DNA from: Lentimicrobium sp.
GTDB taxonomy: Bacteria; Bacteroidota; Bacteroidia; Bacteroidales; Lentimicrobiaceae
Assembly: GCA_024709105.1 (NCBI GenBank)
Contig: JANJXJ010000045.1
Location: forward strand, 1 to 38,307
Direction of reading: 5' to 3'
DNA length: 38,307 nt
Under the pieces are notes generated by a model. It had not been told where the DNA came from. It was given only the letters and a program-made list of their open reading frames with translations, and ran no database searches. Position 1 is the first letter of the stretch, and each line of letters starts with the position of its first letter. The translations under genes were made by a program, and so were the position numbers. Positions 2,719 through 19,334 of the stretch are shown here, piece by piece.

Positions 2719-5139
2719 TTAATTTAGAGTAATCGTTACGTCAAAAGTTTCACCTTTTGTTTTACAGGGAAGTGGTCCATCCCAATCCTGGCCATTTACC
2801 ATACATTTCAGATTGTTTCCTCCGTTGTTTTGTACGGTAATATGGTAGGTATTCCCTCTGTATTTTCTGGTGATTTGTAAATTTTTTATTTCAGAGGGCA
2901 GGTGCGGCTCAATCCGCAATCCTTCATAATCAGGTTTAATGCCTGCTATGAACTGGCTTACTGCAAAAAAGTTCCAGGCAGCGGTTCCGGTAAGCCATGA
3001 ATTCTTGGCTTCTCCCGGTTTTGCTGAGTCTTTCCCTGCTATCATCTGCGAATATACATAAGGTTCTGTTTTGTGCAGATCACTGATGTCTTCGAGATAA
3101 GCCGGGGTTATTCTTTTGTAATAATCAAATGCCTTGTCATTATGACCGAGTATGGTTTCAGCAATTATTATCCAGGGATTGTTGTGACAGAAAATACCTG
3201 CGTTCTCCTTGTAACCCGGAGGGTAAGTGCTGATTTCTCCCAGATTGATGTTGTATTTGGTGTAAGCGGGATTGAGCAATACAATTCCGTAGGGAGTTGC
3301 CAGCCGTTCTTCAACACTTTGCAAGGCTTTTTCGGCTTTTCCATCGGTGAGTCCAATGCCTGCCATAATGCAAAAACCCTGAGGTTCAATAAAAATCTGT
3401 CCTTCTTCATTTTCTTTACTGCCAACCTTGTTGCCGTAGAAGTCGTAAGCCCTTAAAAACCAGTCACCATCCCACCCGTGGTAATCAATAGCGACTTTCA
3501 TTTTTTCAATATGTATCTGGGCTTCAATGGCTTCATTATTGCGGCCTGTAAGTTCGCATATCCTTACAAACTCTTCACCATAAAGCACAAACATACCTGC
3601 AATCATAACCGATTCAGCGGTACGGCCAGTTTTATTGTTGGTGGTTTGAAACGATTCTCCCGGTTTGTCGGAAAAACAGTTGAGATTCAGGCAATCGTTC
3701 CAGTCGGCACGGCCAATAAGTGGCAGATTATGCGGCCCCAGGTTATTTACCACATGGTAAAAAGATCTTTTTATATGTTCAAAGATGGTTTCTTCTGTGC
3801 CCTGATTGTCGAACGGGGCCATCGCATCCAGCAGCGACCAGTCGCCGGTTTCTTTCAGATAAGCCGCAACCGAAAATATGAGCCACAGCGGATCATCGTT
3901 GAAGTTGCCGCCGATTTCATGATTCCCTCTTTTGGTAAGTGGCTGATATTGATGATAAGCGCTGCCATCAGGAAGTTGTGTGCTTGCCAGATCAATAATT
4001 CTTTGCCTGGCCCATTCGGGTTTCAGATGAACCATCCCTGCGATATCCTGATTGGAATCTCTGAATCCCATACCCCGGCCAATTCCCGATTCGAAATAGG
4101 AGGTGCTTCTGGAAAAGAAATAAGTGATCATACACTGATACTGATTCCAGATGTTTACCATGCGATCCAGTTTTTCGTCGCCGGATTTTATATTTAATTT
4201 TCCCAGTAAGTCCCCATAAAAATTCTTTAGCTCCTGAAATGCTTCGTCAACCTGATCGTTGTTACGAAATTGATTTATAAGCCGCTGAGCTTTGGTTTTG
4301 TTAATAATGCTGGGTGCTGTAAACTTTTCATTTTCGTTGTTTTCTACATAGCCAAGTACAAAAATGAAGTCTTTCACTTCACCAGGCAATAAACTTAACT
4401 CAATCAGATGCGAAGCTACAGGAGACCATCCATGGGCGATTGAGTTCCCGCTGCATCCGTTGGCAACCATATCGGGCATATCAAACCCGTTGTAAATTCC
4501 GAGGAATGTTTCACGGTCGGTGTCGAAACCAGCTATATCAGTGTTTACGGAATAAAAAGAGTAGTGATTTCTTCTTTCTCTGTATTCTGTTTTGTGATAA
4601 ATGCAGGAATTTTCAACCTCAACTTCTCCAGTACTGAAATTACGCTGAAAATTGGTTGAGTCGTCCAGTGCGTCCCACAACGCCCATTCAGCAAACGAGT
4701 GGAGCTTGATTTGTTTTGTGCTGCTGCTCTGGTTCTGAAATCTTATTCTTATAACTTCACCTTCGAATCCAACCGGAACAAAATACAGCACTTCTGCCTG
4801 CAGTTCATTCAGGCTGCTTTTTATTTTGGTGTAACCCAGTCCATGCCTGCACTCATAGGTATCAGGCATTGTTTTTACGGGTTTCCAGCCTGGCGACCAG
4901 ATTTTCCCACCGTCGTTGATGTAGAAATATTTTCCTCCATCGTCGAGTGGCACATTGTTATAACGTATTCTGGTAATTCTGCGTAATCGTGCATCCTTGT
5001 AGAAGCTGTATCCGCCCCCTGTATTTGAAATGATACTGAAAAAATCGCCGGTACCCAGATAATTTATCCATGGGTAGGGTGTTTTGGGATTGGTAATTAC
5101 GTATTCCCGGTTTTGATCGTCGAAAGAGCCAAATTTCAT
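2719..5139 (-). CDS. cbp: Cellobiose phosphorylase (GH94)
   Basis: The 806-residue protein has no signal peptide, so it is cytoplasmic. The family converts cellobiose plus phosphate to alpha-glucose-1-phosphate and glucose, saving one ATP per disaccharide. It opens with [20 protein letters not shown], the family N-terminus. It carries GFRDSNQD (358-365), [20 protein letters not shown] (391-410), [13 protein letters not shown] (477-489) and [19 protein letters not shown] near the C-terminus. The catalytic acid is an Asp of ADWND, most likely Asp482. The YHQYQPL and LNLNCFS segments match cellobiose phosphorylases rather than the chitobiose enzymes of GH94, and the length is usual for the former. 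It lies 32 bases after the symporter gene and 6 bases before the GH3 gene. Laminaribiose phosphorylase is a less likely alternative that sequence alone cannot exclude. Confidence 0.92.
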
Positions 5140-5171: not shown

Positions 5172-6782
5172 TTATTTCGCTTCCATTTCCCTTCGCGAAG
5201 CAAGTTCAAGAGTTATCTCATCCATTTTTTGTTGGGTTAAGGGATAAACCGACATTAATACTGCAGCCAGAAGAGCTATAACCGAAGGTATCCAGCTCAT
5301 CAGCATCTTAATGCCGGGTATGGCAAGTTGTATGGAATTACTGTCGTGCCCGCTGTAATGATAAGCGCCTAAAATCAGGCCTATTATGGCCCCGGCAATG
5401 CCTCCTCCGAATTTGGTGGCAAATGAGCCTGCCGAGTAAATGAGGCCAGTGGCCCTCCGGTGGTTTTTATATTCCGAAAAATCAGCTGCATCGCCAAGCA
5501 TGGCAAAAAAGAGGGTAGGGAATATTGCTGAAGCAAACTCAGAAATCATTCCCAGCGCGAAAATGGGATAAATATCTGAAGCTGAGCATAAGAACAAAAG
5601 TGAGTTGGTGAGCCCTGAAAAAATGAGGGCGATGATAAATAATCGTCTTTTTCCTAATTTCCTGCCCAGATACCCGGTTACCATTGCCCCGGCAATAGAT
5701 GCAAGCATCAAACCTACAAGATAGGAGCCTGCAAGTAATTGATTGTTAAGGTAGTGGGTGAAATAAATTACTACAATTCCCTGTTTAACTGAATTGTAAA
5801 TATTAAAAAGTAAACCAGTTAAAAGCAGCACCATCCAGGGTTTATTCCTTGCCAGATCCTTTAGATCCTGCCTAAGGTTGCTTTTCTGACTTTTTGGAGG
5901 CCTGACTCTCTCCCGTGTAGTGTAAAAAGTAACGAACATAAAGAGGGAAAGAAATGCTGACATGATGTAAATAGCACTGCTGTAGCCCTTTTTCTGATCA
6001 ATTATTGAAATTGATTCGGGAGTAAGTCCGCCTTCTCCTTCAACCAGAAATCTATATTCGGTTTTTGAATTCATGCTCAGGCTCAATGAGCTTACGCCTT
6101 GATTATCAGTAAAATTACTGCTTGTATCAACCAATGAAAACAGGCCGATTCCATTTTTGGTTTTCAGGTTTACATTTTCAACATCTTTATTTACCAGTAC
6201 ACTCACTTCATATTTTTTTTCGGACACCTGGGTTGTTTTTATATCAGGATTGATATTTCCGAATTGAGCAACAAGAAAAAGCAATGCACCCTGAACAACC
6301 ATTCCTCCTGCAAAAGCACCCACCATTCGGTATGAGCCCAGCACAGTGCGTTCTTTGTCATCGCCGGTTATTACGGCCATGAGTGCACCGTAAGGAATAT
6401 TGTTGGCTGTGTAAATCAGGGTAAAGAGAATATAAGTGATATAGGCATAAATGATTTTACCGCTTGAACTAAGGTCGGGGGTTGTAAAGAGCAGTGAAAG
6501 GACTATGCCAAGGGGAATAGCAGTCCATAAAATCCATGGCCTGAATTTACCATATCGGGTTTCGGTTCTGTCGCCGATAATTCCCATTAGTATATCGCTT
6601 ATCCCATCGCTGAAACGGGCAACCAGCATAAGCATACCAACGGCAACCGGGCTTATTCCATATACATCGGTATAAAAGACAAATAAAAAAGTTGCCACTC
6701 CCCTCCAGGCAATATTGGCAGCGCCGTCGCCAAGTGCATATCCAATTTTTTCGCCAATACTTATTTTAGAATAGTTTTCCAT
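5172..6782 (-). CDS. GPH-family sugar:cation symporter with a large periplasmic loop
   Basis: This is a 12-helix MFS transporter of the glycoside-pentoside-hexuronide (MelB-like) family, 536 residues. The family motif lies at about 57-86 and includes SDGISDILMGIIGDRTETRY, with Asp59 and Asp63 at the positions that bind the cation in MelB. A second conserved segment, MLGDAADFSEY, is at 428-438. Between helix 5 (about 150-174) and helix 6 (about 268-288) there is a hydrophilic insertion of about 90 residues. It is rich in Ser, Asn and Thr and looks like beta strands; MelB-type proteins usually have a short loop there. The gene sits between the regulator and the cellobiose phosphorylase, so the likely cargo is cellobiose or a related disaccharide entering the cytoplasm. 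Family call firm, substrate inferred. Confidence 0.88.
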   Translation of the reverse strand: MENYSKISIGEKIGYALGDGAANIAWRGVATFLFVFYTDVYGISPVAVGMLMLVARFSDGISDILMGIIGDRTETRYGKFRPWILWTAIPLGIVLSLLFTTPDLSSSGKIIYAYITYILFTLIYTANNIPYGALMAVITGDDKERTVLGSYRMVGAFAGGMVVQGALLFLVAQFGNINPDIKTTQVSEKKYEVSVLVNKDVENVNLKTKNGIGLFSLVDTSSNFTDNQGVSSLSLSMNSKTEYRFLVEGEGGLTPESISIIDQKKGYSSAIYIMSAFLSLFMFVTFYTTRERVRPPKSQKSNLRQDLKDLARNKPWMVLLLTGLLFNIYNSVKQGIVVIYFTHYLNNQLLAGSYLVGLMLASIAGAMVTGYLGRKLGKRRLFIIALIFSGLTNSLLFLCSASDIYPIFALGMISEFASAIFPTLFFAMLGDAADFSEYKNHRRATGLIYSAGSFATKFGGGIAGAIIGLILGAYHYSGHDSNSIQLAIPGIKMLMSWIPSVIALLAAVLMSVYPLTQQKMDEITLELASRREMEAK

Positions 6783-6801: not shown

Positions 6802-7536
6802 TTAATACGAAAGACTTAATTTTTCCTTTTTTGTCCGATCGTACACATCGCGACTGAAGATAAATACCTGAGATGATCTTCGTGCATTGGTTTTTCTTTT
6901 TTCATCAAGGGGAATTACATATTTCATCTGCGAAACTTTTTTCCAGAAGTTCCGGCGGTCGATGCTTGTATTGAGGATGGCTTCGTAAAGAGCCTGTAGT
7001 TCTGATAAGGTAAATTTATCGGGGAGCAACTCAAAGCCGATGGGCTCTCTGAATATTTTGTTTCTCAGGTGCTCAAGTGCCATTTTTATCATTTCTTCGT
7101 GATCATACCCCAGTTCAGGCAGATCAGAAACCGGGATCCAGCTGGTATACTCATGCTGATGGTCGGGTTTGACTTTTGAACTGTCAACCAGCGAAAAGTA
7201 GCAAACCGAAACAACATGTTCGCTCACCATGGGGTACATAAGTTTTTTCCAGAGCTGATCGTTTGGTTTTTGCAGGCGGTTGGTATTGCCAAATGTATGA
7301 AACTGTTCCAGATAAATATTGCTTAATCCTGTTTTGTCGAGCAATACCCTTTTGGCTGCATCATCAACATTTTCGCCAACAAGAACATGATGACCCTGCA
7401 GGGTATAATCAGAGATCAGAAGTTCGCCGCTTGACGGGTCTTTGAGTTCGCGTTTGGTAAGAAGCACATTCAGTGTCTGGTTGTCAAAACCAAAAATTAC
7501 ACAGTCAACAGACAGGTTGTTAATGATTGATTCCAT
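6802..7536 (-). CDS. Nudix-domain transcriptional regulator (NrtR/AraR-like)
   Basis: The 244-residue protein has an N-terminal Nudix fold (about 8-140) and a C-terminal winged-helix DNA-binding part (about 160-235: LSELQALYEAILNTSIDRRN, then FWKKVSQM). This is the layout of NrtR-type regulators, which in Bacteroidota include the arabinose regulator AraR. The catalytic Nudix signature is broken: the REUxEE core reads RVLLDK (63-68), so two of its Glu are Val and Lys and the third is Asp. It should therefore bind a ligand without hydrolysing it. As the first gene of the operon, 19 bases before the symporter, it probably controls both arms of the locus through the inverted repeats at 7540-7556 and 7882-7898. 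The effector is unknown; a sugar or sugar phosphate of the cellobiose route is a reasonable guess. Confidence 0.85.
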   Translation of the reverse strand: MESIINNLSVDCVIFGFDNQTLNVLLTKRELKDPSSGELLISDYTLQGHHVLVGENVDDAAKRVLLDKTGLSNIYLEQFHTFGNTNRLQKPNDQLWKKLMYPMVSEHVVSVCYFSLVDSSKVKPDHQHEYTSWIPVSDLPELGYDHEEMIKMALEHLRNKIFREPIGFELLPDKFTLSELQALYEAILNTSIDRRNFWKKVSQMKYVIPLDEKRKTNARRSSQVFIFSRDVYDRTKKEKLSLSY

Positions 7537-7539
7537 AAT

Positions 7540-7556
7540 AATGTAATTTATACACC
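7540..7556. promoter_or_regulatory. Operator candidate at the regulator promoter
   Basis: The imperfect inverted repeat AATGTA-ATTTA-TACACC has 6-base arms and a 5-base spacer. It starts 3 bases after the minus-strand -7 element, so it should cover the transcription start. It has the same architecture and the same core (TGTA-N5-TACA) as the site at 7882-7898, suggesting autoregulation by the Nudix regulator. Confidence 0.55.
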
Positions 7557-7559
7557 ATG

Positions 7560-7567
7560 CAAAGGTA
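7560..7567 (-). promoter_or_regulatory. -7 element of the regulator operon promoter
   Basis: On the minus strand this reads TACCTTTG, an exact match to the Bacteroidota -7 consensus TAnnTTTG, about 24 bases before the regulator start codon. I see no clear -33 TTTG at the normal spacing, so strength may depend on an activator or on a weak -33. Confidence 0.55.
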
Positions 7568-7848
7568 TAACTTTTTGTTTCATGATTATTTTTATCCTAA
7601 AAAATTTTTGCCGGTAATTTTTTATAATATTTTTTTAGATAAAGCAATTTTCAAATTTGTGTTTGATGTTCAAAAAATATACTAACAAATTTATAAATAA
7701 CTATAAAACAGCATATAAGATGCAATCACTAAAGCCATATTTTTAATAGAATATGTTTCTGTACCTATAATATTACATAAAAAGCAACCGGCTTTTCTAC
7801 GGCTGCTATTTAGAATTAATATAAATTACGATTTGTGCGAAAAAAAAC

Positions 7849-7877
7849 TTGCCCGGGAAAAAATTTCTGTATATTTG
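7849..7877 (+). promoter_or_regulatory. susC promoter (-33 and -7 elements)
   Basis: TTG at 7849-7851 and TATATTTG at 7870-7877 are separated by 18 bases and match the Bacteroidota -33/-7 pattern. Transcription should start near 7884, inside the inverted repeat at 7882-7898. Confidence 0.65.
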
Positions 7878-7881
7878 CAAA

Positions 7882-7898
7882 AGTGTACAAAATACACT
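7882..7898. promoter_or_regulatory. Operator candidate at the susC promoter
   Basis: The perfect inverted repeat AGTGTA-CAAAA-TACACT begins 4 bases after the -7 element and overlaps the expected transcription start. A protein bound here would block transcription, so repression is the simplest reading. The sister site lies at the divergent promoter (7540-7556). Confidence 0.6.
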
Positions 7899-7955: not shown

Positions 7956-10900
7956 ATGAAAACAGATGCTTACAAGAATCTGCGGATTGCCCCCTGTTTC
8001 AGGAAGGGTTTATTCCTGCTGGGATTGGCGTTGTTAGTTGTATTTAATACATCTATTGCGCAGAATGTTTACAAATTCGGAGGTGTTGTTCAGGACGAGT
8101 CGGGAAGTACATTGCCGGGAGTAAATGTAATTCAGACTGGTACAACCAACGGAACAGTAACCGGAATCAATGGAGACTTCCTATTAACTGCTGACAAGCA
8201 GAGTGTAAAAATTACATTTTCCATGGTTGGTTACACAACTGTTGAGCTTGAACTTAAATCTGGAGAAAATGTGGTAGTTGTTTTAAAAGAAGATATAGTT
8301 GGACTTGAAGAGGTACTTGTTGTGGGATACGGTACCCAGAAAAGAGCCAATGTTACCGGTTCAATCTCAAACGTGGGAAGCAAAGATCTTGCACAATTGC
8401 CAACCACAACTGTTGGACAGGCATTACAGGGCCGGATTGCAGGGGTTAATGTACTGAGCAACTCTGGGTCTCCCGGAGCCGGTTTGCGCCTTGTTATCAG
8501 GGGTGTTGCAACCAATGGTGGTTCACAGCCCCTGTATGTGGTTGATGGAATAGCAACAGATTATATTGATAATCTGGAGCCCAATGATGTTGAGAAGGTT
8601 ACTGTTCTTAAAGATGCAGCATCTGCTGCCATCTATGGTGCAAAAGCAGCCAATGGTGTAGTACTTATTACTACCAAAGCTGGTAAGGCCGGTAGTGGAA
8701 AAATTGAATACTCATTCCAGGGTGGAATGCAAAGTGTTGGTAAATATACCAAACCTATGGATGCAGCCAGCTACTCCACATGGGTAAACGAAGCCAATGT
8801 AGGGGTTACAATTCCTACCGATTCTCCGTATAACACCAATTGGATGGATGCAACCCTGCAATCTGCACCTCTGCAAAGACATCACCTTTCATTTTCTGGC
8901 GGAACCGAAAAGGGAAGCTATTATATTTCAGCCGGTTATATGAATCAGGATGGAGTTATTGGTGGTGACAAAGCCAACTATGAGCGTTTTTCTTTAAGGA
9001 CCAACCTCGATCAACAGGTTAAATCATGGGTAAAAGTTGGTGCTAATCTGGCATATACACATTTTGAAAGAGCTGCCATCAACGAAGACGATGAATTTGG
9101 AAGTATTGTATTCAAGGCTCTTGCCATGGATCCTACAGCTCCGGTAGTTTTTGAAGGAGCACTCCCCGGTTTTGCTCAGAATGCTCTGAATAGCGGATAT
9201 ACTTTAGTTCAGGATGAAAACGGCAACTATTATGGCGTTACTGATAATGTAAAAGGAGAAATAACCAATCCGCTTGCAGAAATTGCCCTTGCAAAAGGCA
9301 GCACAAAACAGGATAAACTTTTGGCAAATGCATATGTTGTGCTTGGTGACGAAAGCTGGAAAGGATTCAAATTTACCAGCCGCACCAGTGCAGATGTCGC
9401 AAACCAGCTATATCATACCTGGACACCTAGCTATTGGTTCTCACCGGAGCGTTTTAATTCCACTGCTAACGTCAGGGAAAACACCAATGCATGGTTTACC
9501 TGGATGTGGGAAAATTTTATTTCCTATGATAAATCATTTGGAAAAAGTATAGTAAGTGCCGTAGCAGGTACCGCTGCCAAACAATATACCCATAAGTATA
9601 TCAATACTCTGTCGGGTCCTATGTTTGCTGAGGATGAGAGTTTTGCACAGCATGGCGAGGTTGATATTGAAGGAAGTCTCAGCGGTAATCTCCGCGATGA
9701 GCGCCTTTCATCTTATTTTGCCAGAGCAAACTATGAGTACGACGGCAAATACTTATTGAGTGCTGTTATTCGTCGTGACGGTACTTCTCTGTTACATCCC
9801 GATCAAAGATGGGGCAACTTCCCTTCAGTGTCAGCCGGATGGATTGTATCAAATGAAGGTTTCTGGAATTCATCAATTATTGACTTTTTCAAAGTCAGGG
9901 CATCATGGGGAACCAATGGGGACCTTTCAACTCTCGGGCCCGATCAGTTCAGATCTCTCATAAAATCTGCAGGAATTCAGTATCCTAAGCCTGGTGGTGG
10001 ATTCTATACCGGTGCTGAGCCCGAACTTCTGGCAAATCCTGAACTAACCTGGGCAACCAGCGAACAAATTAACCTTGGTTTTGACTTTTCCATGTTTGGT
10101 GATAAAGTAACTTTTGGCCTCGATCTCTATCAGAAAATAACCAGAGACCTGCTTGTTCCCGGTACTCCCCCGTTATCAGTGGGCAACAATGCGCCATTCG
10201 TTAATGCCGGTGATGTAACCAACAAAGGTATTGAAATCGAACTTGGCTACCGCAACTATAGCAATATTGTAAAATTTGACATTAATACCAATTTTACAAT
10301 CATGGATAATGAAGTAACTTACCTCAATCCGCTGCTTGACAGGGTTGGAGGCGCTTCATTAGGAACCGGCTGGTCGGTTACTCAACTTGAGTTGGGCTAT
10401 CCCATATGGTATTTCAGAGGTTATCAAACTGATGGTATTTTCCAGAACCAGGCTGAGATTGATGCATACAAAGCTGCCAATGGTGGTCTTGCAGGATACA
10501 ACCCGGTGCCGGGAGATCCCATTGTTGTTAACACAAACGGAGATGAGCTCATCAATGTTGAAGATCAGACTGAAATCGGAAGCCCGCACCCAAAATTTAT
10601 GTGGTCGCTCAATTCAGGCCTTACCTATAAATCATTCGATTTGAGAGTATTTGTTCAGGGAGTTCACGGACACGACGTATTACTCGGCTGGAGCAGGCAG
10701 GACAGGGCAACCTCAAACAGGCCCCAGTTTTTCTTTGATGAAAGGTGGACAGGCGAAGGAAGCACCAACGAAAGACCAAGAGCTGATCAGGGAAATCCTT
10801 TTATCTACAACAGCGACCTGATGGTTTATAAAGGCTCTTATGTCAGAATCAGGCAGATTATGCTGGGATATACCTTGCCAAAACCCATCATCAAAAACAA

Positions 10901-11069
10901 TGTCAAAACACTCAGGCTTTCTGTTTCATTGGATGATTTCTTCACCTTTACAAGTTATCCGGGAATGGATCCTGCAGCTGGTACCGGCAGAGACAATTCA
11001 GTTGGAATTGACAGGGGGATGTACCCGACTCCCAGAAAGATCATGTTTGGCCTGACACTGGGTTTGTAA
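7956..11069 (+). CDS. susC: SusC-type TonB-dependent outer-membrane transporter
   Basis: The 1037-residue protein is the beta-barrel that imports oligosaccharides across the outer membrane with its SusD lid, powered by TonB. A signal peptide covers about 1-35 (ends SIA before Gln). A carboxypeptidase-D-regulatory-like domain follows at about 38-112. The Ton-box-like segment EEVLVVGYG lies at 118-126. The plug (about 130-245) has the SusC signatures PLYVVDGI, VTVLKDAASAAIYGAKAANG and VLITTK. The rest is barrel, ending in a short LTLGL tail. Length is typical for SusC. The first gene of the rightward arm, it lies 42 bases before susD, which confirms a SusCD pair. The substrate is inferred from the neighbouring beta-glucosidases and cellobiose phosphorylase, not from the barrel itself. 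Confidence 0.96.
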   Translation: MKTDAYKNLRIAPCFRKGLFLLGLALLVVFNTSIAQNVYKFGGVVQDESGSTLPGVNVIQTGTTNGTVTGINGDFLLTADKQSVKITFSMVGYTTVELELKSGENVVVVLKEDIVGLEEVLVVGYGTQKRANVTGSISNVGSKDLAQLPTTTVGQALQGRIAGVNVLSNSGSPGAGLRLVIRGVATNGGSQPLYVVDGIATDYIDNLEPNDVEKVTVLKDAASAAIYGAKAANGVVLITTKAGKAGSGKIEYSFQGGMQSVGKYTKPMDAASYSTWVNEANVGVTIPTDSPYNTNWMDATLQSAPLQRHHLSFSGGTEKGSYYISAGYMNQDGVIGGDKANYERFSLRTNLDQQVKSWVKVGANLAYTHFERAAINEDDEFGSIVFKALAMDPTAPVVFEGALPGFAQNALNSGYTLVQDENGNYYGVTDNVKGEITNPLAEIALAKGSTKQDKLLANAYVVLGDESWKGFKFTSRTSADVANQLYHTWTPSYWFSPERFNSTANVRENTNAWFTWMWENFISYDKSFGKSIVSAVAGTAAKQYTHKYINTLSGPMFAEDESFAQHGEVDIEGSLSGNLRDERLSSYFARANYEYDGKYLLSAVIRRDGTSLLHPDQRWGNFPSVSAGWIVSNEGFWNSSIIDFFKVRASWGTNGDLSTLGPDQFRSLIKSAGIQYPKPGGGFYTGAEPELLANPELTWATSEQINLGFDFSMFGDKVTFGLDLYQKITRDLLVPGTPPLSVGNNAPFVNAGDVTNKGIEIELGYRNYSNIVKFDINTNFTIMDNEVTYLNPLLDRVGGASLGTGWSVTQLELGYPIWYFRGYQTDGIFQNQAEIDAYKAANGGLAGYNPVPGDPIVVNTNGDELINVEDQTEIGSPHPKFMWSLNSGLTYKSFDLRVFVQGVHGHDVLLGWSRQDRATSNRPQFFFDERWTGEGSTNERPRADQGNPFIYNSDLMVYKGSYVRIRQIMLGYTLPKPIIKNNVKTLRLSVSLDDFFTFTSYPGMDPAAGTGRDNSVGIDRGMYPTPRKIMFGLTLGL

Positions 11070-11111: not shown

Positions 11112-12617
11112 ATGAAAACCATAATAAAATCTCTTGTGCTCGTCTCAATCATTGCTTTGAGCACGGCCTGCCAGAAGGATTTTCTCGAGGTAGACCCAAT
11201 CGGAAAACTCACCGTTGAAAAGTTTTACAACACCGATGAAGATGCCAACCGTGCAGTTATTGCTGCATACGATATTCTTCAGTGGATGAATGCCCGTGAC
11301 TGGAACAGCGCCTATCTGGTTAAAACTTTCCCTTCTGATGAGTCGAATGTTGGTGGCGGTGATGCCGGTGATCAGCCTCCCTATCAGGAACTCGGAATTT
11401 TTAATTACGGCCCGAGCAACGCTACCATTACAGCAGTTTGGCAGTCGAATTATTTTGGAGTATACAGAGCCAATCAGGTAATTAACAACGTTAAGCCCGA
11501 AACTGATTTTCGCAAAAGAATCATTGCTGAGGCCAAATTTCTGAGAGCTTATTATTATTTTGAAATTGCCTCAATGTTTGGCAACGGACCATTAAATCTT
11601 ACCGATCTTACTCCCAGCGAGTACAGTCAGCCATTTGTAAATGCATCAGCCATTTACGCTCAGGTTGCTAAAGATCTTACCGAAGCCATTCCTGACCTGC
11701 CTCTGAAAAGTCAGTACGCACAGGAAGATAAATTCCGTGCATCAAAAGGTGCTGCACAGGCTTTACTCGGAAAATGTTATCTCTATGATAAAAAGTACAG
11801 CGAATCAGCTGCAGCTTTTGAGGATGTAATTAATTCCAATGAGTTTGATCTGCAACAGGATTTTTCCACCCTTTTCCTTCAGGCTTCTGAATTTGGTGTT
11901 GAGTCTGTATTCGAAGTGTCATGGGTAACTGAAATGGGTTACGACTGGGGTACTTTTCAGTGGGGAGGCAACAGGGCCATGGAAAACAACATCACCTGGC
12001 AGCTTACCGGTCCTCGCGGCGATTATTTCCAGCCCGGCAATACCGGCCTTATCGGAGGCTGGGGGTTCAATTATCCCAAACAGAGCTTATACGATGCATT
12101 TGTTGCTGCAGGAGATACCAAGCGTAAAGTGGCTTCTGTAATGTCGCTCGAAGATTTAAGAGCACAAGGTGGCGACTGGACCAATGAAAGTTCATGGGGA
12201 TGGGATGGCTGTATCAGAGTGAAATATGGCACCAGGCTTGATGAAACCGCTGGTCCTGTAAATGAGCTGAACTATGGTACCAATCTCAGGCTGATTCGTT
12301 TTGCTGATGTGCTGCTCATGGCTGCTGAAGCTAATCACCTTTCAGGGAATGATGGCAAAGCAACTACCTACCTCAACAGGGTAAGACTAAGAGCTGAACT
12401 GCCTTCTTTTTCAGGCGATATTTTGACTGCCATAAAGAAAGAGCGTGAACTTGAACTTTGTTTTGAAGGTGTTCGTTTCCTTGACCTGATTCGTTGGGGT
12501 GATGCACCTGCAGTTTTAGGTTCTGCCGGATTTGTTGCCGGAAAGCATGAAGTATTTCCTATACCTCAGGCTGAAATGCGCAACAATGCCAAAGCCGTGC
12601 AGAATAATGGATATTAG
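11112..12617 (+). CDS. susD: SusD/RagB-family glycan-binding lipoprotein
   Basis: The 501-residue lipoprotein forms the surface lid of the SusC transporter and binds the incoming glycan. The signal peptide ends in the lipobox STAC, with Cys20 as the lipidated residue. The N-terminal region has the SusD pattern FYNTDEDANRAVIAAYDIL, then the TPR-like segment RIIAEAKFLRAYYYFEIASMFG split over 510-580 of the coding sequence. The C-terminal signature is LIRFADVLLMAAEA, followed by KKERELELCFEGVRFLDLIR. Several Trp-rich stretches (EVSWVTEMGYDW, SSWGWDGCIRV) could supply aromatic platforms for sugar binding. It is co-transcribed with susC and followed by a strong terminator, which separates it from the downstream GH3 gene. 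Confidence 0.95.
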   Translation: MKTIIKSLVLVSIIALSTACQKDFLEVDPIGKLTVEKFYNTDEDANRAVIAAYDILQWMNARDWNSAYLVKTFPSDESNVGGGDAGDQPPYQELGIFNYGPSNATITAVWQSNYFGVYRANQVINNVKPETDFRKRIIAEAKFLRAYYYFEIASMFGNGPLNLTDLTPSEYSQPFVNASAIYAQVAKDLTEAIPDLPLKSQYAQEDKFRASKGAAQALLGKCYLYDKKYSESAAAFEDVINSNEFDLQQDFSTLFLQASEFGVESVFEVSWVTEMGYDWGTFQWGGNRAMENNITWQLTGPRGDYFQPGNTGLIGGWGFNYPKQSLYDAFVAAGDTKRKVASVMSLEDLRAQGGDWTNESSWGWDGCIRVKYGTRLDETAGPVNELNYGTNLRLIRFADVLLMAAEANHLSGNDGKATTYLNRVRLRAELPSFSGDILTAIKKERELELCFEGVRFLDLIRWGDAPAVLGSAGFVAGKHEVFPIPQAEMRNNAKAVQNNGY

Positions 12618-13009: not shown

Positions 13010-15250
13010 ATGAAAAATACTTACTCCCGCATAGTCGTATTCCTTATGACTTGTATTGTGATGCTAAGCGCCGGAACTATATATGCCCAGCAATTAACCA
13101 TTGATCAGCGGGTTGATTCTGTTTTAAAACTGATGACTCTGGACGAAAAAATAGGGCAGCTGAATCAATATTCCGGTTTTGAAGAAGCTACCGGACCTGT
13201 AACCGAAGAAGCCGACAAGCCTGAGCAACTGCGAAAGGGGATGATTGGTTCAATGCTCAACGTTACAGGAGCAGTTAAAACAAGGCAGGCTCAGGAAATG
13301 GCCCTGCAATCGAGGCTCAAAATTCCTCTGCTGTTCGGACAGGATGTTATTCACGGATACCGAACTATTTTCCCAATTCCCCTGGCCGAAGCAGCCAGCT
13401 GGGATCTGGAAGCCATCGAACTTTCGGCCCGGGTTGCCGCCACCGAAGCTTCAGCAGCCGGCGTTCACTGGACTTTTGCCCCGATGGTTGATATATCAAG
13501 AGACCCCCGCTGGGGAAGGGTAATGGAAGGTGCGGGTGAAGACCCTTACCTGGGTTCATTGGTAGCAGCAGCCCGGGTAAAGGGATTTCAGGGAAACTGT
13601 CTGGGTAATACCGATGCGCTGATGGCTTGTGGAAAACATTTTGCTGCCTATGGTGCAGCTGTTGGTGGCCGCGATTACAACAGTGTGGATATGAGTCTCC
13701 AGCAATTGCATAATGTATATCTGAAACCTTATAAAGCTGCGGTTGATGCCGGTGTGGCTACTATGATGACCTCTTTCAACGACATCAATGGTATTCCCGC
13801 AACAGCCCACAAATACATTTTGCGCAAGGTACTCAGGGATAAATGGAATTTTCAAGGTTTTGTACTCAGCGACTGGGGCTCGGTGGGTGAAATGATTAAC
13901 CATGGTTATTCAGCCGGTGAAGCCGATGCTGCTAAAGCCGCACTGCTGGCCGGCTGCGATATGGATATGGAAAGCCGGTGCTATATCAAAAATATGAAAA
14001 GTCTGGTTCTGTCCGGAGCCATAAGTGAAGATGTTATTGATGAATCAGTCAGGTTGATACTTCGCAAAAAGTTTGAAATGGGCTTGTTCGATGATCCGTT
14101 CAGATTCTGCAACGAAGAGCGCGAAAAACAGCAGTGGGACAATAGAGCGCATCGCGATATCGCACGGAATATGGCCCGGAAAAGTATAGTACTGCTTAAA
14201 AATGACAAAGAACTTCTTCCTCTTAAGGAAAATGTAAAAACCATTGCCATGATTGGGCCATTGGTGAAAGCGGTGGGCGAAAACAATGGATTCTGGAGCT
14301 ACTCATGGCCCGATGATTCGGTAAGAATTGTTACTCAATGGCAGGGCATTCTCAACCGGGCGGGCAATCAGGCAAATCTGCTGTATGCAAAAGGCTGCGG
14401 AATCACTGAGCCCGACAGCAGTGGTTTTAAAGAAGCCGTTGAAATTGCCATGAAAGCAGATGTTGTGATTATGAGCGTGGGAGAATCGGCCAATATGAGT
14501 GGTGAAGCCAAAAGCCGGAGCAATATACAGCTTCCGGGTGTTCAGGAGGAATTGATAAAAGCAGTTTATGCAACAGGCAAACCCCTGGTAATAATCATCA
14601 ATGCAGGAAGGCCGCTGGTTTTTAACTGGACTGCCGATCATGCCCATGCTATTCTTTATACATGGTGGTTAGGCACCGAAGCAGGAAATGCCATAGCCGA
14701 TGTTGTTTTTGGTGATTATAACCCTTCAGGTAAACTTCCGATGTCCTTTCCCCGGTCCGAAGGGCAGATTCCGGTTTATTACAGCTACTTTAATACAGGC
14801 CGCCCGCCCAAAGATGAAAACGATCTTAATTATGTTTCGGCCTATATTGATATGCCCAATTCGCCCCGCTTCCCGTTCGGTTACGGCCTGAGCTACACCT
14901 CGTTCAGCATTTCTGAACCTGTGCTTAATACCACCAACATCACAGCCGGTGAAGAACTTATTATAAAAGTTACAGTTTCAAACACCGGAAATGCCGATGG
15001 CACAGAAACGATACAGTTGTATTTTCGCGACAAGGTGGGTTCATTGGTGAGGCCTGTAAAACAACTGGCTGGATTTCAGCAGGTATTTTTACGAAAAGGC
15101 GAATCCCGAACTCTTACTTTTACCCTCACTGAAAAAGATCTGAGGTTCTATAACGAAAACCTGGAATTTGTTTCTGAACCCGGTGAGTTTGATGTTTTTG
15201 TTGGAAACAGCCCGGATAATTTAAAAGGAAAGGGGTTTGTTTTGGATTAG
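13010..15250 (+). CDS. bglX: GH3 beta-glucosidase, secreted (BglX-like)
   Basis: This second family 3 glycoside hydrolase has 746 residues. It carries an ordinary signal peptide (1-26, cleavage after IYA) and no lipobox, so it should be soluble in the periplasm. The barrel domain (about 30-360) has MTLDEKIGQLNQY, KHFAAYGA and GFVLSDW with Asp288 as nucleophile. The second domain has ANMSGE with Glu499 as likely acid/base. A fibronectin-III-like domain closes the protein (about 645-740). It is clearly paralogous to the lipoprotein GH3 on the left arm. It comes after the susD terminator with its own regulatory region. The enzyme probably trims beta-gluco-oligosaccharides imported by SusCD; exact linkage is not determinable from the sequence. 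Confidence 0.93.
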   Translation: MKNTYSRIVVFLMTCIVMLSAGTIYAQQLTIDQRVDSVLKLMTLDEKIGQLNQYSGFEEATGPVTEEADKPEQLRKGMIGSMLNVTGAVKTRQAQEMALQSRLKIPLLFGQDVIHGYRTIFPIPLAEAASWDLEAIELSARVAATEASAAGVHWTFAPMVDISRDPRWGRVMEGAGEDPYLGSLVAAARVKGFQGNCLGNTDALMACGKHFAAYGAAVGGRDYNSVDMSLQQLHNVYLKPYKAAVDAGVATMMTSFNDINGIPATAHKYILRKVLRDKWNFQGFVLSDWGSVGEMINHGYSAGEADAAKAALLAGCDMDMESRCYIKNMKSLVLSGAISEDVIDESVRLILRKKFEMGLFDDPFRFCNEEREKQQWDNRAHRDIARNMARKSIVLLKNDKELLPLKENVKTIAMIGPLVKAVGENNGFWSYSWPDDSVRIVTQWQGILNRAGNQANLLYAKGCGITEPDSSGFKEAVEIAMKADVVIMSVGESANMSGEAKSRSNIQLPGVQEELIKAVYATGKPLVIIINAGRPLVFNWTADHAHAILYTWWLGTEAGNAIADVVFGDYNPSGKLPMSFPRSEGQIPVYYSYFNTGRPPKDENDLNYVSAYIDMPNSPRFPFGYGLSYTSFSISEPVLNTTNITAGEELIIKVTVSNTGNADGTETIQLYFRDKVGSLVRPVKQLAGFQQVFLRKGESRTLTFTLTEKDLRFYNENLEFVSEPGEFDVFVGNSPDNLKGKGFVLD

Positions 15251-15513
15251 GATGAGGATGCCTTGCATATTTAATAATCGGGAAAATCGGAAAGACCTTT
15301 GATGAGCATAATACGTAATTTTTTCCAGGTAAAGTTTAAACAACTTCATTGTCATGGCTTCAAACACACATCCTTCCTCATCTCCGGTCAACCAATTTCC
15401 GATTGATGATGTAAAAATAATTCAACCATGAGCCGGGTATGCAGCTATTTATTTTACGCCTTGTTTTGGTCAATAACCGCTGAAATATTTGATTTATTCG
15501 CTGCTAAAACACA

Positions 15514-18500
15514 TTAGCCAAGGATTAATAAAAGTATAATTTCAACTTTTGTGCCGGCGGGTTCGCCATTTTTATCTGTTAGGTCGGTGATGTTTATACT
15601 GCACTTATTGGTGCCGAGTGTTTGGTTCATCAAAGCAATTCTCTCCAGCGTAATGCGTGTGGATTGTGGTTTGTGTGCGGGCCGTTTCCAGCTTTCGATT
15701 TCGCTTGATTTTTTTCGGCCTACTCCATTGTCCTGCACAATACATTTAAAGAGATCTGCATCAGCGCTGAAGATTAAATCTATCTTTCCTTTCCCATTTT
15801 GTTTATGCATTAAACCGTGCCTGATGGCATTTTCAACGTATGGTTGCAGAATCATGGGAGGAATTAATACTGCCTGAGGGTTAACATGATCGGGAAGGAT
15901 TATCTCCACTTCAAATTTTTGATCAAATCGCATCATCTCAAGTCTGAGGTAATAGCCAATATATTGTAATTCTTCATCCAGGCTGATGAATTCGCGGGAC
16001 GCATTTTCAAGGGTTTGCCTCAGAATTTTAGAAAAATCCATAAGATAGCCAAGGGCTTCTTCTGATTTGTTTTTGAGTATAAAACTCTGAATGGAGTTAA
16101 TTGAATTAAAGATAAAGTGTGGGTTCATTTGTGATTGCAAGGCTCTTATTTCAAGATTCGCGAGCTGCCTCGAAAATTCCGTCTTTATTTTTTCTTCCCG
16201 GCGGATTTTTCTGATTTTTAACAGCATGATCGCCCAAATAATCAATATAAAAGCAATAGTCATCAGCATGATAAACCACCATGTTGAATACCAAGGATGT
16301 TTTATTGTAAAGTCATATTCAAGCCGGCTTGTTCTGGCATTGTTTAATGTGTTTTGAACTTCAGCTACCAATTTGTATTTGCCAGGGTTTAATGAAGAGT
16401 AAACAGCTTTGGTTTCACTGCTGAATTCTGACCAGCGGTTTGAAAAGCCCAGCAATCTGTATCGGTAAAGTGTTTGTTGAGAATTCAGATAATTGATTGT
16501 CTCAAAATGAAAAGTAAGGTTATTTTGATCATGCGCTAATATTAATTGCTTGTTCAATACCGGGAACTCTTCATAATTGACTTCCATCCTCTCAATCATG
16601 ATATCAGGTTCAATAGCATCCAACAGGTCATTCATTTTATTTGTGTTGATTCTTAATAAATGATGGTCTGTTCCAATCCAGATGTTTCCTTCATGATCCA
16701 ATTCTGCAGTTTTACCTGAATAGTCGGAGTATCCGGTCTCACGATCAAAAAAATTGACAATTACTTTATTTTCCTGATACAGAGCTTTCAGATTAAGTCT
16801 GTTTAGTCCCAGATTTGTTCCGATGAATAAATGATTTGTGTGATCTGCAATAATAAACTTAACTGTATTTCCCTTTATGTGTTTGCCCGGAATGAGCCGG
16901 TGTTTTATCTCAAGTCCCTTTCTGGCATCATAGTTAACAATCAGGACATCTCCTGTATTGCTCCCAATTACTGTATTTCCCTTTTGATCAAAACATATAT
17001 CATTAATAATCAAAGGAAGTGATGGGTTTATTTTGCTAAATTGAAAAAGCATGCCTTTGCTTCTCATGAATAGGCCTTCAGATTTGCTAGCAAACCAAAC
17101 AGCATCAGCAGATGAAATTATCTTAACAATTTGAGGAATGGGAAAGCCAGGATGAAAACCTGGATTATTTGTACCCTGGTTTGGAGTATTAAAGGCATTT
17201 ACAAACACTCTGTCCCACCATTTATCAGAATAATACAGCGAATCGAACCTGTCGAAATCGAAGATGGTACCTGCTGGGTTAATTTTATATAAGTGTGGTT
17301 GAGCATATTGTTCTGAAGCAAGGAACTGAACCAGATTATTTTGAAACTTGCCAACATAAACATTTCCTTTGGAATCTTCTCCTATACAATTGAATTCCAG
17401 ATCTGAGTACGGTGTAGGGTTGCCCCATATTTCTATAAGTTGTTTATTACTTATTGATTTAATGTTGCCCTTCGGGTCTCTGATCATTAAACGGTTTTTG
17501 GCACCAATCCAAAGTGTTTTATTTTTGGCCTGGAACAATGATTTAACGTTTAATTCTTTCAGTCCGAAATCTGTAGCTATGTGCCATTCAAATACCGATA
17601 GAGGTATTTTGAAAAGACCTTCGTTTAGTGTTCCAACCCATAGCTGACTGAATACAGAATCATAATACAATGCCCAGACACTTCTGTCACCTATACCCAT
17701 ACGCTGATTATAGTTTTTTATGCTTTTGCCATCATACTTATACAAACCACCGGTTTTTCTTGTAGTATAATCAGCAAAACAAGCTAACCATATATTTCCA
17801 TCAGAGTCTTGTTTAATGTCAAATATCTGTCCACAGCCGGAAAAGGATTTCCTTAAACCATTGTTCAGGACATTTATACCATCATTAAAATTGCTGACAA
17901 TGGTGTCGCCATTATTCAGAATAAGCGGTGAAGTGGAATGTCGATTTTTTGCGTAACGGGAGGCTCTGATCTTTTTGAAAGTTTTTGTTTTAACATAGTA
18001 TTTGTAATAATAATCAGGGCTATAAGTGTATATGTTTACACAATTATCTCCATCAAGAAATCCCATCACAAAAAGACCCTTAACTTCGCTTTCTTTGGCA
18101 GTTAATGAAATAAAAGATTTGCCATCAAAAATGCTACAGCCATCATTCGTGCCAATTAGAATCAGTTTGTGCTTTTTCGAGAACCAAACCACTCTGATAA
18201 GGTCGTTTACCAATCCATTCTTTTCGGTATAGTTGACAAAAGATTTTCCATCATATTTTGAAACACCTCCCTTCATACTTCCAATCCAGATGTTTTGCTT
18301 ATCATCTTCAGCAATGGAGAATACATTATCCCCAACCAGGCCCTCTGTAATTCCCATAACCTGGAAATTTTTACCGTCAAACAGGCAAACACCAGCACTT
18401 GTGCCAATCCACATCCTGTTTTTAGTGTCCTTGTATATGCTTCTTACCGTGTTGCTTGGAAGCCCGTTATTTACTGAATAATTGGTGGCAAGGTTTTGTT

Positions 18501-18558
18501 GCCCGGAGACATTAGTATTAATTAAAAGTCCAAAAAGCAGTAAAGCCAGTATTCTCAT
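15514..18558 (-). CDS. Sensor histidine kinase: propeller, Y_Y_Y domain, LytS-type kinase
   Basis: The 1014-residue membrane sensor has a signal peptide (1-19). A periplasmic seven-bladed-type beta-propeller region (about 25-640) follows, with two-component-propeller repeats such as GNIWIGT, KNRMWIGT and KQNIWIGS. A Y_Y_Y domain (about 685-755; YRYRLLGFSNRWSEF) and one membrane helix (about 758-781) come next. The cytoplasmic kinase part is of the LytS/His_kinase type, with QMNPHFIFNSINSIQSF placing the phospho-acceptor at His814. The ATPase has PMILQPYVENAIRHG (901-915) and DNGVGR (943-948). Unlike hybrid two-component regulators of many glycan loci, it has no receiver or AraC domain. The partner is the LytTR regulator gene just upstream, with a 4-base ATGA overlap. 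The ligand is unknown; a glycan or envelope signal is possible. Confidence 0.9.
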   Translation of the reverse strand: MRILALLLFGLLINTNVSGQQNLATNYSVNNGLPSNTVRSIYKDTKNRMWIGTSAGVCLFDGKNFQVMGITEGLVGDNVFSIAEDDKQNIWIGSMKGGVSKYDGKSFVNYTEKNGLVNDLIRVVWFSKKHKLILIGTNDGCSIFDGKSFISLTAKESEVKGLFVMGFLDGDNCVNIYTYSPDYYYKYYVKTKTFKKIRASRYAKNRHSTSPLILNNGDTIVSNFNDGINVLNNGLRKSFSGCGQIFDIKQDSDGNIWLACFADYTTRKTGGLYKYDGKSIKNYNQRMGIGDRSVWALYYDSVFSQLWVGTLNEGLFKIPLSVFEWHIATDFGLKELNVKSLFQAKNKTLWIGAKNRLMIRDPKGNIKSISNKQLIEIWGNPTPYSDLEFNCIGEDSKGNVYVGKFQNNLVQFLASEQYAQPHLYKINPAGTIFDFDRFDSLYYSDKWWDRVFVNAFNTPNQGTNNPGFHPGFPIPQIVKIISSADAVWFASKSEGLFMRSKGMLFQFSKINPSLPLIINDICFDQKGNTVIGSNTGDVLIVNYDARKGLEIKHRLIPGKHIKGNTVKFIIADHTNHLFIGTNLGLNRLNLKALYQENKVIVNFFDRETGYSDYSGKTAELDHEGNIWIGTDHHLLRINTNKMNDLLDAIEPDIMIERMEVNYEEFPVLNKQLILAHDQNNLTFHFETINYLNSQQTLYRYRLLGFSNRWSEFSSETKAVYSSLNPGKYKLVAEVQNTLNNARTSRLEYDFTIKHPWYSTWWFIMLMTIAFILIIWAIMLLKIRKIRREEKIKTEFSRQLANLEIRALQSQMNPHFIFNSINSIQSFILKNKSEEALGYLMDFSKILRQTLENASREFISLDEELQYIGYYLRLEMMRFDQKFEVEIILPDHVNPQAVLIPPMILQPYVENAIRHGLMHKQNGKGKIDLIFSADADLFKCIVQDNGVGRKKSSEIESWKRPAHKPQSTRITLERIALMNQTLGTNKCSINITDLTDKNGEPAGTKVEIILLLILG

Positions 18559-19334
18559 GAATTCTTATCCTTAGTTCTCCAATGGGTAAGAACGTTAATA
18601 AACTCTTCATTTTTTCGGGTTGCAACAGGTAACCAAAGATTGTTATCCAGATAAATACCAAAATTAGACGAGCGGGAATATGATTTTATATAGTTAAGGT
18701 TAACCAGATAAGATTTATGAATACGAAAAAAATAGCTGCTTGAAAGTAATTCTTCAACATCTTTTAGTGTTCTTGACACCATAATCATGCGACCATCGGC
18801 ACTGTGAATTCTGGTATAATTTACATCACCTTCACAGTACATTATATTATTCAACTTCTCCATCTGATATCCATCAATTGTTGGAAATGCAACTTTCTGA
18901 TTCATGTCAATTCCACATAACAGGTTTGACATAAGCACATCAATCCTGGTTTGGGCAGAATTTGTGCCTCGCTTCTTTTCATACCTTAGGATTGCTTCTT
19001 TGACATCAATATAATTGATAGGTTTTAAAAGATAATCCAATGCGGCATATTTAATTGCGTCAATCGCATACTGCTTAAATGCCGTTGTAAATATTACCTC
19101 AAAAGTGATTCTTGAGAAATATTCAAAAAGTTTAAACCCGCTCTCCTGCGGCATTTCAATATCAAGGAATACTAACTCTGGCTTAGTTTGTTTAATAATT
19201 TCAACTCCCTCTTTTACAGAAGCTGCCATGCCTTTTACAACTAATTTTTCATACAGGTAGCGCTCACAAATATCCCTGAAAGCTTCTCTTGCTAAACGTT
19301 CATCATCTATTATTACGCAGGTAATTTTATTCAT
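18555..19334 (-). CDS. LytTR-family response regulator
   Basis: The 259-residue cytoplasmic regulator has a receiver domain (about 4-120) with the acidic pocket IIDDERLAREAF (Asp10, Asp11), phospho-acceptor Asp58 in LVFLDIEMP, and the KPI motif near residue 103. A LytTR DNA-binding domain follows (about 150-255), with the typical segments YTRIHSADGRMIMVSRTLKD and FFRIHKSYLVNL. This is the AgrA/LytR/AlgR class, which binds direct repeats in promoter DNA. Its stop codon overlaps the start of the sensor kinase gene, so the two proteins are translationally coupled and should work as a pair. Its targets cannot be named from this window. Confidence 0.93.
   Translation of the reverse strand: MNKITCVIIDDERLAREAFRDICERYLYEKLVVKGMAASVKEGVEIIKQTKPELVFLDIEMPQESGFKLFEYFSRITFEVIFTTAFKQYAIDAIKYAALDYLLKPINYIDVKEAILRYEKKRGTNSAQTRIDVLMSNLLCGIDMNQKVAFPTIDGYQMEKLNNIMYCEGDVNYTRIHSADGRMIMVSRTLKDVEELLSSSYFFRIHKSYLVNLNYIKSYSRSSNFGIYLDNNLWLPVATRKNEEFINVLTHWRTKDKNS

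Follow-up and report, generated by a model that had tools for sequence, protein, structure and literature searches.

Two matching inverted repeats, O1 and O2, lie between the divergent arms of a cellobiose-type locus of Lentimicrobium sp. and are in all likelihood the operators of the adjacent NrtR/AraR-branch regulator, which would repress both arms together with its own gene and be released by a sugar, while a second conserved element would add activation of susC. An initial annotation of the window, by which we mean the whole analysed stretch of 38,307 nucleotides, had proposed one operator for the locus, and this operator is very probably correct.

Gene content of the locus

The left arm, on the minus strand, starts with the gene of the Nudix/NrtR-type regulator (244 aa; 6802-7536), which was recognized by the Pfam domains NrtR_WHD (1.9e-23), NUDIX (2.3e-9) and AraR_C (5e-7). 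It is followed by a GPH-family sugar symporter (5172-6782; Pfam MFS_2 3.4e-87, NCBIfam TIGR00792 above cut-off), a GH94 cellobiose phosphorylase (2719-5139) and a BglX-like GH3 beta-glucosidase (394-2712; Pfam, and NCBIfam NF011678 at 747.7 bits with a cut-off of 666). The right arm, on the plus strand, encodes a SusC-type TonB-dependent transporter (7956-11069; NCBIfam TIGR04056 1.1e-231), a SusD-type lipoprotein (11112-12617; Pfam SusD_RagB 4e-29) and, further along, a second GH3 enzyme (13010-15250; Pfam domain scan).

The GH94 protein scored 1249 bits against the cellobiose phosphorylase 3qde, far above the 434 bits obtained with chitobiose phosphorylase. A match of 1107.7 bits to 3s4c concerns an entry labelled lactose phosphorylase, which we take to be an engineered cellobiose phosphorylase. 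Assignment as a chitobiose, cellodextrin or laminaribiose phosphorylase was rejected on the PDB match scores. Because the enzyme matches cellobiose phosphorylases, we refer to a cellobiose or beta-gluco-oligosaccharide locus.

The stretch 13010-19334, between susD and an ABC transporter, contains the second GH3 gene along with a Reg_prop/His_kinase sensor and a LytTR response regulator. In two same-genus genomes (G011 and G012), the ABC transporter directly follows susD and the extra GH3 and two-component genes are absent at that place.

Two inverted repeats at divergent promoters

O1 is located in front of the left arm at 7540-7556 (AATGTA-ATTTA-TACACC) and O2 in front of susC at 7882-7898 (AGTGTA-CAAAA-TACACT). 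Both were detected by pattern scan and are kept, with at most one mismatch, in 5/5 orthologous gaps. O2 is a perfect 6-5-6 inverted repeat with pairing at 6/6 arm positions, compared with 4/6 in the imperfect O1. The initial annotation had described these two 6-5-6 repeats and had placed each of them 3-4 bases after a TAnnTTTG element, and we found them as described.

In Bacteroidota, the -7 box has the form TAnnTTTG. A figure legend of PMC6989115 mentions a -7 consensus. Putative boxes of this kind, recognized from the sequence and from the orthologous gaps, are TACCTTTG on the minus strand of the left arm (7560-7567) and TATATTTG on the plus strand of the susC arm (7870-7877). The 17-mer O1 is 3 bases away from the TACCTTTG box and lies 3 bases ahead of the regulator start codon, and the 17-mer O2 begins 4 bases downstream of the TATATTTG box. 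Transcription is presumed, on the basis of these consensus boxes, to start at O1 and O2, and operators placed just past the -7 boxes would fit repression of both arms as well as autoregulation. The sign of the regulation is itself deduced, and the regulator could in principle act at O1 and O2 as an activator. We regard this as very unlikely, since a dimer bound to operators that begin 3-4 bases past the -7 box should block initiation and since BtAraR, the arabinose regulator of Bacteroides thetaiotaomicron, is described as losing DNA affinity in the presence of its sugar, upon which its targets are induced (PMC4666351).

The pattern RTGTA-N5-TACAY is present three times in the window, where 0.10 occurrences are expected. 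The third match (8203-8217) falls inside the susC coding region, and no counterpart at ≤1 mismatch was found within the first 600 susC bases of 4/4 orthologs. It was rejected as an auxiliary operator on account of this absence and is probably a coincidence of codons.

At least two copies of RTGTA-N5-TACAY were obtained in 0/20,000 dinucleotide shuffles of the 419-base gap, a count made after the fact with a pattern drawn from these very copies. A loose criterion, namely any two similar 6-N-6 repeats with a spacer of 3-8, was satisfied by 2,372/3,000 shuffles of this AT-rich gap, and RTGTAN5TACAY is not enriched genome-wide (18 occurrences vs 18 for the reversed control). Because of the loose test and the genome-wide count, two similar repeats taken from a single sequence constitute weak evidence for an operator, and comparative data have to decide. 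Both results go against the statistical argument of the initial annotation, according to which two matches in the right places strongly suggest one operator.

Conservation of the repeats

We compared the window with four orthologous gaps, two from same-genus genomes (G011, whose contig also appears as L058, and G012, with regulator identities of 78% and 68%) and two from L060 and L061; the five gaps measure 247 to 419 bases. In G011 and G012, the gene order is regulator-symporter-GH94-GH3, divergent from susCD. Aligning the gaps of related genomes was the check that the initial annotation had suggested, and sites of the RTGTA-N5-TACAY type proved to be conserved: each of the 5/5 gaps contains exactly two GTGTA-N5-TACAC sites (≤1 mismatch), one per arm, at the places of O1 and O2. 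The two -7 boxes are kept across the five gaps as well, and, in an alignment by eye, the remainder of the gap has diverged apart from the sites, the -7 boxes and the second element.

A broader set of relatives came from scanning 84,980 species, each represented by one genome; at least 598 stretches matched, and we retained the best 80, with gene content recorded for the best 50 of these 80. The nearest loci among the best 80 of at least 598 stretches (L058-L093) are referred to as the 36 loci. GH94 is present in 32/36 and the symporter in 27/36 of them, and three of the four loci without GH94 (L060, L065 and L066) run out at the end of the DNA. Neither GH94 nor the symporter was found at E 1e-10 in the next 14 loci, which are still within the best 50 of 80.

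With a 5-base spacer, GTGTA ranked first among 1,024 half-sites, occurring within 300 bases upstream of 29/37 regulators at ≤1 mismatch; the runner-up TATTT reached 16/37 upstream regions, and spacers other than 5 at most 9 of 37. No site was detected at ≤1 mismatch within 300 bases in 8/37 upstream regions, some of which carry a 2-mismatch form such as AGTGTT-N5-AACACT. Within the 36 loci (593,687 bases), the exact sequence GTGTA-N5-TACAC has 17 occurrences, of which 17/17 lie within 450 bases upstream of a regulator gene; two control motifs had 0 occurrences in the same 593,687 bases. These site and locus counts are not independent because many of the loci are closely related. The truncated L059, from the same assembly as L060, was left out of the half-site, distance, residue and residue-179 counts.

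On the regulator side, 8/36 upstream regions have the -7 box at a distance of 4 from the 15-mer, and on the susC side 4/36 have it at a distance of 5; in the remaining upstream regions of the 36, an exact -7 box at those distances was not found. G012, which is outside this count, shows distances of 4 and 5 by eye.

One could argue that the repeats are chance palindromes of AT-rich intergenic DNA, as the frequency of loose matches in shuffles and the equal genome-wide counts for pattern and control would suggest. We give this explanation a negligible probability: the strict pattern did not occur twice in any of the shuffles, and we rejected chance on the basis of the half-site ranking, the placement of all exact sites at regulator genes and the retention of both sites in every gap. 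The preferred reading thus remains that O1 and O2 are operators, and their sequences, positions and conservation as well as the gene order around them are direct observations.

Family, DNA contacts and sugar pocket of the regulator

Family and contact residues of the regulator were likewise established directly. The protein belongs to the NrtR family, with NUDIX at 37.8 bits (cut-off 21.1) and NrtR_WHD at 82.8 bits (cut-off 27), and its Nudix catalytic motif is, by eye, impaired, reading R-V-L-L-D-K where the published motif is R-E-U-X-E-E. It also carries the AraR_C domain (30.3 bits, cut-off 23.8), and its best PDB match is BtAraR (5bs6; 8.3e-42). NAD-type NrtR repressors, which respond to ADP-ribose, share the family fold and the winged-helix domain; however, the window regulator scored 103.5 bits against the curated model NF050029, vs a cut-off of 400, and an NAD-type NrtR was rejected on this score. 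No NAD gene was found among the 9 window proteins scanned.

BtAraR (BT0354) was described as contacting DNA through K179, R180, N181, K184, K204 and R205 and its sugar through R34, R86 and H131 (PMC4666351). At positions 179/180/181/184/204/205 the window protein has R, R, N, K, R and R, four of them identical and two Lys-to-Arg replacements. Among 64 aligned regulators, BtAraR included, N181 is present in 64, R180 in 63 and the triad R34/R86/H131 in 64; this alignment contains one gene twice (L097 = R_L022), leaves out L074, L084 and L091, skips L039 and represents the distant loci by a selection.

The operator form is known from the same system. According to PMC4666351, a BT0356 promoter oligonucleotide that contains AGTGTA-TTTGA-TACACC is bound by BtAraR, and L-arabinose weakens the binding; the other AraR sites given there are less regular. 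The 6-5-6 form was therefore known already, and the window has the corresponding GTGTA-N5-TACAC-type semipalindrome upstream of the regulator operon. BtAraR and the window regulator thus have in common a Nudix-like and a winged-helix domain, a 6-5-6 GTGTA/TACAC operator, DNA contacts and a sugar triad that are kept or conservatively changed, and a local sugar operon with SusCD targets. Taken together, conservation in all five gaps, the link to the regulator clade, the AraR operator form and the contact residues support the claim of the initial annotation that the two repeats represent one type of operator.

In contrast to BtAraR, the window regulator has cellobiose-type neighbours, two operators on divergent promoters and an altered pocket. 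Relative to BtAraR, the pocket shows the changes F36L, G48H, F49H and F129Y, with the triad kept, and two longer stretches: residues 86-92 correspond to 21 residues vs 6 in BtAraR, and residues 36-47 to 17 vs 11. The 34/34 aligned regulators of the window clade share H49, where BtAraR carries F, as well as the 21-residue stretch. The longer pocket loop also occurs in REG2-type regulators, named after a paralog described below, and is therefore no hallmark of this clade. Given the changed pocket residues, the longer loops and the cellobiose-type neighbours, an arabinose-specific AraR proper was rejected. Three flavobacterial loci (L094, L095 and L096) also have H49, with a stretch of 19 residues; neither a GH94 nor a symporter match was found in them, nor a site upstream.

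H49 and the long stretch would fit a different and perhaps larger sugar and fall short of proving cellobiose. We lean towards cellobiose itself as the inducer. The ligand is deduced from gene order and pocket changes only, and the GH3 enzymes and SusCD could take longer glucans too; another inducer, be it glucose, glucose-1-phosphate, a longer beta-gluco-oligosaccharide or another disaccharide, therefore keeps a substantial share of the probability, if less than an even chance. What speaks against it is the recurrence of GH94, and of a related symporter, in most of the 36 clade loci.

Regulator family and operator form are both known from AraR and XylR (PMC4666351, PMC3878776). BtXylR (BT0791), named in the same papers, is also a sugar-responsive NrtR-family regulator of Bacteroidota; it differs in serving a xylose operon, and its likeness is drawn from its description. 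A literature search, which covered few subscription papers, found no Nudix-type regulator for cellobiose. BtAraR bound to DNA and to arabinose provides a well-solved structural model, which our assignment would carry beyond pentoses to a cellobiose-type branch represented in 36 loci of other Bacteroidota, and this branch gives testable predictions on operator, inducer and pocket.

A paralogous regulator and its sites

The genome, which is 97% complete, encodes two NrtR_WHD proteins. The second one, REG2, is located on contig C182 (L002, L012, L051:1598-2347), has AGTGTATTTAATACACT upstream in the 6-5-6 form, and its DNA-contact residues are nearly identical to those of the window regulator. 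Cross-talk between the two is plausible. In 11 same-genus REG2 loci, a site (≤1 mismatch) was present upstream in 4 and missing in 7. Sites of this form (≤1 mismatch) precede a ROK kinase gene in 11/13 same-genus genomes that carry a regulator vs 1/5 that lack one (p 0.02) and upstream of an MFS transporter gene in 9/11 vs 0/5 (p 0.005), where G002 and G003 are counted as regulator-less though they are 79% and 78% complete. A site also precedes a GH5 gene in 7/10 genomes and is missing in G009, G011 and G018.

These observations raise the possibility that O1 and O2 are bound mainly by REG2, or by both paralogs, and that the locus is part of a wider regulon with the ROK kinase, MFS and GH5 genes. 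The site upstream of REG2 in its own genome, the sites at the other three genes and the nearly equal contact residues all point in this direction. However, REG2 itself is preceded by a site in a minority of the same-genus genomes, and outside the genus the sites follow the window-regulator clade and its gene order. Residue 179 also points to separate tuning, in that Arg179 goes with a TACGC half-site in 9/11 cases vs 0/18 with Lys179, a comparison that ignores kinship and has the window, which is without TACGC, as one of two exceptions. The table behind these counts leaves out L067 (no site, Pro at 179), four site-less Lys rows, L074, L084 and L091. We therefore consider binding by REG2 rather unlikely and continue with the adjacent regulator as the predicted owner of O1 and O2.

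Proposed mechanism

From the observations above we infer binding and repression, as well as the identity of the inducer, in the following form. Without inducer, a dimer of the regulator would sit on both divergent promoter starts and block its own operon (regulator-GPH symporter-cellobiose phosphorylase-GH3) as well as susCD. Cellobiose or a related sugar would then enter the Nudix-fold pocket, the winged helices would turn and both sites would be freed, so that import through SusCD and the symporter would be opened together with phosphorolysis by GH94. Autorepression would limit the synthesis of the regulator itself. On the susC arm, the second element probably brings activation by another regulator; expression of this arm would then depend on the activator as well as on the repressor leaving its site.

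A more far-reaching version, which we offer as a tentative idea with odds clearly against it, is that a disaccharide (cellobiose) is sensed by a separate branch of Nudix-fold repressors whose pocket has changed and whose operator form is still that of AraR, that paralogs within one genome share the operator or are partly insulated from each other through residue 179, and that susC is also under an activator whose genus-wide box accompanies respiratory and redox genes as well. If this were true, glycan uptake across the outer membrane would be tied both to sugar and to redox or energy state.

A second conserved element upstream of the susC promoter

The second element, ATTTAGAATTAATATAAAT (ATTTAGAAT-TAA-TATAAAT), is located on the plus strand at 7808-7826 and has a counterpart in 5/5 gaps, starting 62-63 bases ahead of the -7 box in each of them. 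The pattern ATTTAGAATNNNTMTAAAT (of the form ATTTAGAAT-N3-TATAAAT), which was drawn from these five gaps, matched the own genome 42 + 34 times on the two strands vs 8 + 10 times for the reversed control (≤2 mismatches; palindromes count twice) and five same-genus genomes 65 + 55 times vs 1 + 1 (≤1 mismatch). Across 25 loci of the own genome, 24 sites fall outside the reading frames called in them.

Measured over 50 loci, the distance from the centre of the element to a TAnnTTYG box clusters at 44-46, 53-55 and 65-66 bases (7, 6 and 7 boxes) against a background of 0.7 per 5-base bin at 100-300 bases; these are small numbers that include recurring orthologous genes, and part of the excess comes from the sites being intergenic. 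The spacing suggests that the element is an activator box of another regulator.

A similar arrangement is described for araM of Bacteroides, where the global palindromic box of the Crp-like Cur (BT4338) lies beside a local Nudix-regulator site (PMC4666351, PMC3878776). The Cur/Crp box itself, published as wwwTATGTTnTAnAACATAwww (PMC3878776), is by eye unlike ATTTAGAATTAATATAAAT and ATTTAGAATNNNTMTAAAT and was rejected. Five HTH_Crp_2 proteins scored above the cut-off, and in none of their loci does an element box come closer than 3 mismatches. One of three FUR-family proteins (L257 on contig C86 of the own genome, G000) has a 2-mismatch box at 1309-1327, shortly upstream of its likely start. 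Because the control pattern likewise matches at ≤2 mismatches, this Fur-type protein is a weak candidate for the regulator that binds the second element.

The initial annotation had expected a simpler control than that of hybrid two-component systems. The second element, the REG2 paralog and, in this genome, the nearby sensor kinase and LytTR regulator do not support this expectation.

The second element, a conserved genus-wide box, may couple glycan uptake to redox state. Among ten hand-chosen proteins encoded next to the element, six are redox-related or near it: a di-haem cytochrome c peroxidase, a 2Fe-2S thioredoxin-like protein, a c-type cytochrome, COX1, rubrerythrin and a YceI protein. 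The other four are a TonB receptor, a BNR-repeat protein, a C25 peptidase and one protein without a family.
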